Assembly: GCA_013298895.1 (NCBI GenBank)
Contig: JAAFJM010000017.1
Span: forward strand, 1 to 64,000
Length of the DNA: 64,000 nt
Direction: 5' to 3'
DNA from: Bacteroidota bacterium
GTDB taxonomy: Bacteria > Bacteroidota > Bacteroidia > UKL13-3
In this document: one piece after another, positions 15,965-17,727 of the stretch
How the letters are laid out: each line of letters opens with the position of its first letter
Numbering within the stretch: position 1 is the first letter of the stretch
Made by a program: the position numbers and the translations under genes
The notes under the pieces: generated by a model
The model's database searches: none
Told to the model about the DNA's origin: nothing
Seen by the model: only the letters and a program-made list of their open reading frames with translations

Positions 15965-17227
15965 ATGAGCAAAATAAGAATAAAAAACTTTGGCCCAATT
16001 AAAGAAGGATTTAGTGAAACCTTATCTGATGGTAGTGTCAATGAATGGATAGATATAAAAAAGGTTACTGTTTTTATAGGTAATCAAGGTAGTGGTAAAA
16101 GTACGGTTGCAAAGGTTATTTCATCATTAACTTGGTTAGAAAAAGCAATTAATAGAGGGGATGTCGAAATTGGTAATATATCTCATACTTATTTCTATGA
16201 AGTTTTTAAATACCAACGTATTAAAAGCTATTTTAGAGAAGATACTCAAATAGAATATGAAGGAGAAAGGATAAATTTTAGATATAGCATAAAGTTGATG
16301 TATCCAGAAATTGAAATTAACAGTAACAACAATTTCAATGTTCCTAAAATTATGTATGTTCCAGCTGAGCGGAATTTTTTAAGTGTTGTCAAAAATGCTT
16401 TTGGAATAAAAAATTTACCTGACACCCTTTACACTTTCGCAGAAGAGTTACGCAAAGGGCAACTTGAACTAAATAAAAAATTACTAGAATTACCAATAGG
16501 GGGAGTTAATTATAAGTACAATAAAGACAATGATACCTCCTATATTCTTGGAAAAGATTTTGAATTAAATTTATTGGATTCTTCTAGTGGTTACCAATCT
16601 TTTGTGCCATTATATTTAGTTACTAAATTTTTGTCAGATGAACTTCAAAAAGGAGAGAATATATTACGTGAGCAACTTAATGTAGAACAGAGCGTAAGAA
16701 GAAATAATGAAATAGCAAAGTTAATGTTTGATGACGCTTATGATGAGTCTCAGAAAAATCAGAAAGTAAAAGAAATAGATGCAAAATATTTAAATACTTG
16801 TTTTATTAACATAGTTGAAGAGCCCGAACAAAATTTATTCCCAAGTTCTCAAAGGGAAATGCTAAATATCCTTGTGAAGTTTAATAATATGAAGGAAGGT
16901 AATAAGTTAATAATGACTACTCATAGTCCATACTTGATTAATTTTTTGTCTTTAGCAGTAAAGGCTGAAAGTGTTTTTAAAGATTTGAAGGAGAAAAAAT
17001 ATAAATTAGATGATCCTGAATTATTACACACTAATGAAATAGTCCCAATGTCATCGACTGTTGATTCAAACGATTTAGTAATTTATGAATTAGATGAAAA
17101 AGATGGATCCATAAAGAAACTTGGAAATTTTGAGGGTATTCCATCGGATAAAAACTATTTAAATCAATCAATAAGAATTGGGAATATTGAATTTGATAAA
17201 TTATTAGAAATTGAGGAAGAATTATGA
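15965..17227 (+). CDS. AAA-family ATPase (ABC/OLD-type ATPase fold)
   Basis: MSKIRIKNFGPIKEG start; Walker A GNQGSGKSTVAKVI; Walker B FINIVEEPEQNLFP; MTTHSPYLINFL. Confidence 0.85.
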   Translation: MSKIRIKNFGPIKEGFSETLSDGSVNEWIDIKKVTVFIGNQGSGKSTVAKVISSLTWLEKAINRGDVEIGNISHTYFYEVFKYQRIKSYFREDTQIEYEGERINFRYSIKLMYPEIEINSNNNFNVPKIMYVPAERNFLSVVKNAFGIKNLPDTLYTFAEELRKGQLELNKKLLELPIGGVNYKYNKDNDTSYILGKDFELNLLDSSSGYQSFVPLYLVTKFLSDELQKGENILREQLNVEQSVRRNNEIAKLMFDDAYDESQKNQKVKEIDAKYLNTCFINIVEEPEQNLFPSSQREMLNILVKFNNMKEGNKLIMTTHSPYLINFLSLAVKAESVFKDLKEKKYKLDDPELLHTNEIVPMSSTVDSNDLVIYELDEKDGSIKKLGNFEGIPSDKNYLNQSIRIGNIEFDKLLEIEEEL

Positions 17228-17727
17228 GAGTTAATTTCAATAAAACTGATTGTCAAAAAAGAATAAGTGAAAAAAAATTTGGCTTGTATGATGAGGAAGA
17301 CAAAACACCAGCTAAAATCATAGAAACTGATGAACAAACATGGAATGCAATAGTAATTAATAAGGAAAGTAAAACAATTTTGTTTACTGCTATTGATAAC
17401 TGTATTGATATTTTTAGAAAAAATGGTGAAATGGATAGTCGCTGTGATTGTATGCTTACTTATGATTCAACACTATTGTTGGTTGAATTAAAGAACAAAA
17501 GAGATTCTTGGCAAACAGAAGGATTGGCACAAATTGAAAATATTGCACAAAGAATGATTTCAGAAAATTCAGATTATTATTATAGTTTTAAAAAACGAAA
17601 GGCAGTGGTAGCTAATAGAAAAAACCAGTTTCCTTCATTTCATGAATCTAATGCTGAACAACGACAATATTTTAGTTCGAAATATAAAATGAGAATTCAG
17701 TTTGATGCAGAAATAATTATTGAATAA
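17224..17727 (+). CDS. PD-(D/E)xK-like protein paired with the preceding ATPase
   Basis: CDCMLTYDSTLLLVELKNKRDSWQTEGLAQIENIAQRM: D...ExK pattern; 4-bp ATGA overlap with the ATPase. Confidence 0.6.
   Translation: MRVNFNKTDCQKRISEKKFGLYDEEDKTPAKIIETDEQTWNAIVINKESKTILFTAIDNCIDIFRKNGEMDSRCDCMLTYDSTLLLVELKNKRDSWQTEGLAQIENIAQRMISENSDYYYSFKKRKAVVANRKNQFPSFHESNAEQRQYFSSKYKMRIQFDAEIIIE

Follow-up and report, generated by a model that had tools for sequence, protein, structure and literature searches.

What is the two-gene module that lies between hsdS and hsdR in this Bacteroidota genome, and is it a new type of defence system? The window analysed here is the whole stretch of 64,000 nucleotides from contig JAAFJM010000017.1. 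The initial annotation saw in it an ATPase gene that overlaps by ATGA the gene of a 167-aa protein, and proposed a sensor ATPase controlling a nuclease-fold effector, possibly of a new type. The ORF check recovers both frames exactly where that annotation put them, on the + strand and with an ATGA overlap at 17224-17227. The motifs it named are also there. Walker A and Walker B are invariant or nearly so in relatives, and in the 167-aa protein D...VELKNK is present, with D75, E88, L89, K90 and Q103 invariant or at least 90% conserved. An ABC-type ATPase coupled in translation to the small protein is thereby supported. The initial annotation did not mention the signature-like SSGYQS and the H-loop TTHSP of the ATPase, the type I restriction operon around the pair, the adjoining Septu pair or a third PD-(D/E)xK-like gene. 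All of these features are collected in Table 1.

Table 1. Features of the PDC-M29 locus and its host operon, in window positions; conservation is among 49 relatives of the ATPase and 54 of the partner.
Feature	Position	Strand	Evidence or remark
HsdM, host type I restriction operon	10214-11548	+	PADLOC MTase_I 2.9e-189; in-frame TAG at 11546-11548 shortens HsdM
HsdS, host operon	11686-12858	+	Lies between HsdM and cargo; homologues in the HsdS position of L067 and L070
Septu pair, genuine, neighbouring cargo	PtuA 12864-14579, PtuB 14579-15472	+	PADLOC 1.1e-147, 1.1e-69
151-aa protein, neighbouring cargo	15475-15930	+	KGVDIIV..VVEVKG, PD-(D/E)xK-like by eye
PDC-M29A, ABC/OLD-like ATPase, 420 aa	15965-17227	+	PADLOC PDLC04562 E 8.8e-153, residues 1-419 on profile 1-409/410
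Walker A GNQGSGKST, residues 39-47	16079-16105	+	G39, G44, K45, S46 invariant
ABC signature-like SSGYQS, residues 207-212	16583-16600	+	S208, G209 invariant; S207, Q211, S212 at least 90%
Walker B IVEEPEQNLFP, residues 283-293	16811-16843	+	E285, E286, E288, N290, L291, P293 invariant
H-loop TTHSP, residues 318-322	16916-16930	+	T318, H320, S321, P322 invariant
C-terminal extension of ATPase, ~residues 345-420	16997-17224	+	Ends in helix 398-419; proposed nuclease-docking tail and exchange unit
PDC-M29B, small probable PD-(D/E)xK nuclease, 167 aa	17224-17727	+	PADLOC PDLC04563 E 1.5e-51, residues 1-166 on profile 1-163/164
C10, C60, C74 span	17251-17445	+	Codons 17251-17253, 17401-17403, 17443-17445; invariant
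Predicted catalytic D75, just before strand 76-80	17446-17448	+	At least 90% conserved
Predicted catalytic E88-L89-K90 in strand 83-90	17485-17493	+	Invariant
Q103 in helix 96-114	17530-17532	+	Invariant
HsdR	17728-20703	+	NCBIfam TIGR00348 3.9e-165; starts on base after nuclease stop, no gap

The operon is tightly packed and runs hsdM, hsdS, PtuA, PtuB, the 151-aa gene, the ATPase gene, the small nuclease gene and hsdR. Each gene of the pair is present once in the 3.6 Mb genome. The HsdM frame continues for 46 more codons beyond its TAG, to 11689. Since this continuation can be aligned to the C-terminal end of intact homologues, the shortened HsdM may impair the restriction-modification enzyme, or the TAG may be a sequencing error. 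HsdS is 58% identical over the aligned part to the ORF in the same position of L067 and 94% to that of L070. The 151-aa protein has weak NOV_C/NERD matches and no PADLOC match, and is possibly a separate small defence gene. The pair itself is not there by chance, since its profile E-values are 9e-153 and 1.5e-51, the overlap is exactly 4 nt (ATGA) in 44 of 53 pairs measured in other genomes, and PDC-M29B diverges from its L067 homologue by 16/13/45% at codon positions 1/2/3, which is typical of constrained coding sequence.

The upstream protein is an ATPase of the ABC/OLD-like class. It has Pfam AAA_15/AAA_21 matches, and its AlphaFold model is confident (pLDDT 91.9). Foldseek ranks Septu PtuA first among the matches of this model (E 1.8e-9, probability 1.00), along with retron ATPases of the PtuA type, at TM-scores of 0.4-0.47 and 12-15% identity. 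Sequence-profile searches of the PDB also put the retron PtuA-type ATPases at the top. SMC/Rad50 heads are also among its structural neighbours. The model has no TOPRIM domain; beyond the H-loop there is a short extension, and the protein ends at residue 420.

The downstream partner is harder to place. Pfam, NCBIfam, PHROGs and PDB sequence searches gave no usable match for it, and Pfam PDDEXK_9 is matched by 2 of its 54 relatives, at a best E of 0.0024. Its AlphaFold model (pLDDT 92.0) has strands 76-80 and 83-90, helix 96-114 and strand 124-131. This predicted order of strand, strand with ExK, helix and strand puts the conserved D75, E88, K90 and Q103 at the positions expected of a PD-(D/E)xK enzyme. 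The Foldseek leaders are BsoBI, Nt.BspD6I and R.BspD6I2 (best E 0.035). Mus81/XPF/Hef come next, together with an arenavirus endonuclease and the CRISPR ancillary nucleases Can2/Cdn1; unrelated folds, gelsolin among them, are scattered between these matches. The nuclease fold proposed in the initial annotation is thereby favoured by a confident model, by the strands that carry the motif and by nucleases as top matches, but no Foldseek match falls below E 0.001. We regard a PD-(D/E)xK nuclease fold as probable from the model. The three cysteines C10, C60 and C74 also align in most distant homologues.

Is the pair new? Both proteins match the PADLOC-DB candidate PDC-M29 over their full length and in its gene order, PDC-M29A then PDC-M29B. 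By sequence this pair is a new locus of a catalogued but uncharacterised candidate family. PDC entries come from a guilt-by-embedding study in which experimental validation is pending for most (PMC12988326). A literature search under the name PDC-M29 found no published characterisation and no experiment on any member. The suggestion of a possibly new type does not survive, because both genes are already catalogued and the logic of an ABC ATPase with a PD-(D/E)xK effector has been demonstrated in WonAB (PMC12137116). The initial annotation had allowed that the pair might already be a named system. A catalogue name does exist, but no characterised function goes with it.

One scan of GTDB genomes gave 64 named loci with the pair, in Bacteroidota, Chlorobiota, Ignavibacteriota and Cyanobacteria. 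Of 396 genomes sampled evenly across the phylum, 29 have a PDC-M29B match. Wherever the locus is intact, the ATPase gene is directly upstream of the nuclease gene. Most copies stand alone, without restriction genes nearby, and a PADLOC scan of their immediate neighbours, which had no usable total or control, showed few defence families and does not count as support for a general defence-island signal. In nine loci (eight named ones and the window) the pair is part of a type I restriction operon, in most cases between hsdS and hsdR, and this placement requires at least 6-7 changes on the trees. In Sphingobacterium siyangense two divergent PDC-M29 pairs lie in tandem (L090:7760-11308).

The rest of the hsdS-hsdR slot varies among relatives of the restriction operon in the window. 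Besides the pair, the window has Septu and the 151-aa protein, and L070 has a GHKL-type ATPase (677 aa) followed by a homologue of the 151-aa protein that is 85% identical. L067 has a DarG-like macrodomain, L108 a similar protein and L098 nothing. This macrodomain protein has 146 aa and is alone between hsdS and PDC-M29A in L067 (7300-7740) and L108 (1996-2436). It is DarG-like in L067 (E 1.3e-66), and the L108 protein is similar to it by sequence. No DarT toxin was seen beside it in either locus. Defence genes between hsdS and hsdR have been published, for example DarTG2 (PMC12255303), and the slot described here agrees with this.

It must be noted that viral contigs have no close relative of the nuclease. 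They have only two distant pairs, which were reached through the ATPase (L131:7950-9690 and L132:1860-3744). A third distant pair of like layout lies in a glycan gene cluster of a Bacteroides plasmid (L135:4139-5702). In all three the ATPase is 26-28% identical and the small partner has CD/CE..ExK. They share the layout, and the class is wider than PDC-M29. A different case is Mic1_13 of Microcystis phage Mic1 (L134:5001-6239). This is an intact-looking PDC-M29A ATPase with its tail, up to 69% identical to cyanobacterial PDC-M29A ATPases, and no PDC-M29B adjoins it. We take its sequence as that of a candidate decoy or counter-defence protein.

The two genes of the window do not have the same relatives. 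In the ATPase tree the window groups with L104 and L087, and the nearest rows of its nuclease are L067-L071. AU tests on the nuclease data reject joining the window with L104 (p 5e-53) and with L104 plus L087 (p 3e-7), and those on the ATPase data reject joining it with L067 (p 5e-74); these p-values are optimistic because the groups were picked after the identities were seen, and the likelihood differences are large, at 157-445 units. The switch falls within the ATPase, which is nearest to L104 up to about residue 340 and then changes to the L067/L068/L070 kind. The sequences indicate that the ATPase body on one side, and the C-terminal tail plus nuclease as a unit on the other, were swapped as separate modules.

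Which part of the ATPase follows the nuclease? Residues 391-420 covary with it the most, with a partial rho of 0.39 against -0.18 to 0.23 for the other segments, in 55 pairs that are not independent of each other. The tail (386-420) has a rho of 0.55 with nuclease residues 121-167 and of 0.35 with residues 1-48, and the bootstrap 95% interval of this difference is 0.06-0.34. One can imagine that physical linkage is the whole cause of the covariation. That would predict the strongest signal at the start of the nuclease, which is adjacent in the DNA, yet the far end is stronger. Since the tail covaries the most with this far end, we argue that the sequences suggest a docking surface at which the ATPase tail would meet the C-terminal region of the nuclease.

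We favour, with moderate confidence and by analogy, the reading that PDC-M29 is an anti-phage system on the plan of WonAB and Septu, one that aborts infection or degrades nucleic acid. The ABC-type ATPase would dimerise around ATP, and its C-terminal extension would hold the small PD-(D/E)xK nuclease, as the covariation supports. A phage-derived trigger or a change of nucleotide state would alter the ATPase dimer. The nuclease would then cut DNA or tRNA and stop the infection, following the examples of WonAB, of Septu, one system of which cleaves the variable loop of tRNA-Tyr (PMC13096335), and of PARIS, whose AriB cleaves host tRNA (PMC12839542). The module is presumably autonomous, since it usually stands alone, and in the window it shares the hsdS-hsdR slot with other defence cargo. 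We argue for defence because both genes match PDC-M29, the ATPase has the full set of ABC motifs and a PtuA-like fold, the partner has a nuclease-like fold and the gene pairing is kept. The placement in type I operons, where Septu and a DarG-like macrodomain are cargo in the equivalent slot, points the same way. So does WonAB, which is of like architecture and needs both genes and both active sites (PMC12137116).

Other readings have to be weighed against the favoured one. The nuclease could be an RNase that cuts specific tRNAs on activation and halts translation as PtuB (tRNA-Tyr) and AriB do, with the same switch and no degradation of DNA. The nearest ATPase folds are PtuA, the tRNA cleavage by a Septu system and by AriB is as cited above, and so small a nuclease (167 aa), which lacks a DNA-recognition domain, would suit this role. 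The leading Foldseek matches are DNA restriction or nicking enzymes, and PD-(D/E)xK enzymes are mostly DNases, so we hold this reading to be possible but rather unlikely. A larger departure is that the partner is not an active nuclease at all and instead serves as a subunit in regulation or metal binding through its three cysteines. This draws on the invariance of C10, C60 and C74 and on the Foldseek E-values. However, the conservation of E88, K90 and Q103 equals that of the cysteines (that of D75 is at least 90%), these residues occupy canonical positions, the top matches are nucleases, and the distant pairs of L131 and plasmid L135 retain CD..ExK but not every cysteine. We judge a non-catalytic subunit to be unlikely.

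The operon setting raises another alternative, in which the module guards the restriction enzyme. The ATPase would monitor HsdR or the type I complex and fire when a phage inhibits restriction. PrrC next to EcoprrI is the model for such a guard, and it would explain both the nine loci in type I operons and an HsdR directly after the nuclease in the window and several others. Against it, restriction genes are absent from the surroundings of most of the 64 loci, and the HsdM of the window is truncated. Moreover, the nuclease does not track HsdR: among loci whose HsdR proteins form one family (83-90% identical), its identity is 72-75% in some and 32-33% in others. A guard of restriction is quite improbable on these grounds. 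Least probable of all is a DNA-repair or housekeeping pair of the Rad50/SbcC kind with no defence role. The SMC/Rad50 heads among the structural neighbours of the ATPase would be expected of it, but a patchy distribution within the phylum (29 of 396 genomes), presence in four phyla, recurrent location in restriction operons and swapped parts would not, and we give it very little credence.

If the favoured anti-phage reading is true, the sensor and effector halves of such systems are naturally exchangeable, and an orphan ATPase borne by a phage is a testable counter-defence protein. One can extend this to a doubtful but conceivable scenario. PDC-M29 might evolve by natural domain exchange in which the ATPase body, as sensor, and the unit of docking tail and nuclease move independently of each other, so that in hybrids such as that of the window tail and nuclease still match while the sensor is foreign. 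Phages might take advantage of this docking surface as well, and the tailed ATPase of Mic1 could be a decoy that titrates or locks the host nuclease.

How does the pair compare with known systems? In Pfam, PADLOC and NCBIfam its partner has no TOPRIM, UvrD or HNH signature, and therefore the pair is not PARIS, Gabija or Septu; the initial annotation had excluded the first two by eye, and rightly. PARIS likewise has an ABC ATPase and a small effector, but the similarity to AriA (E 9.5e-16) is confined to the ATPase motifs, the partner has no DUF4435/TOPRIM match in Pfam or PADLOC, and there is no TOPRIM among the Foldseek matches listed. Gabija shares a weak ATPase-domain similarity (E 2.6e-7); here the ATPase lacks a TOPRIM domain and the partner has no UvrD-like helicase match. 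PD-T4-4 is likewise an operon of an ATPase and a small nuclease, with weak ATPase similarity (E 9.5e-11). It was rejected because the partner has no match to PD-T4-4_B (PDLC04034, which is in the PADLOC library) at E up to 1. The PD-T4-4_A/_B profiles matched nowhere in 148 genomes of the phylum, which carries no information on homology. Septu is nearer in ATPase fold, at the modest TM-scores given above for PtuA and the type I-A retron effectors. Its PtuA profiles match PDC-M29A at E 7.6e-10 at best, against 1.1e-147 for the true PtuA next door. Membership in Septu is rejected since the partner has no HNH motif or PtuB match, and the genuine PtuB is a separate gene.

With PDC-M29 the pair shares full-length matches, gene order and ATGA coupling, and no trait was found that sets it apart as a family member. 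What marks the locus itself is the hybrid history of ATPase and tail, together with its Septu neighbour. The family now has a probable PD-(D/E)xK fold with named residues for its effector and a likely docking surface in the short ATPase tail, and an uncharacterised catalogue entry can be set beside the experimentally proven WonAB and Septu. By analogy of architecture, WonAB is the closest proven system. It comes from the WASA-1 prophage of V. cholerae and pairs an ABC ATPase, WonA (AWB73975.1), with a PD-(D/E)xK nuclease, WonB (AWB73976.1), in abortive infection, and its authors place it in a larger uncharacterised family of ABC-ATPase sensors with nuclease effectors (PMC12137116); it is also compared with the 'OLD-ABC ATPase + novel REase' operons. 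In architecture the two-gene layout is the same, an ABC ATPase with a C-terminal extension and then a small PD-(D/E)xK protein. The active-site lysine is reported as K71 in WonB, and predicted as K90 in PDC-M29B. In WonAB the dimerised C-terminal extensions of WonA are the predicted binding site of WonB (PMC12137116), which matches the covarying ATPase tail of PDC-M29.
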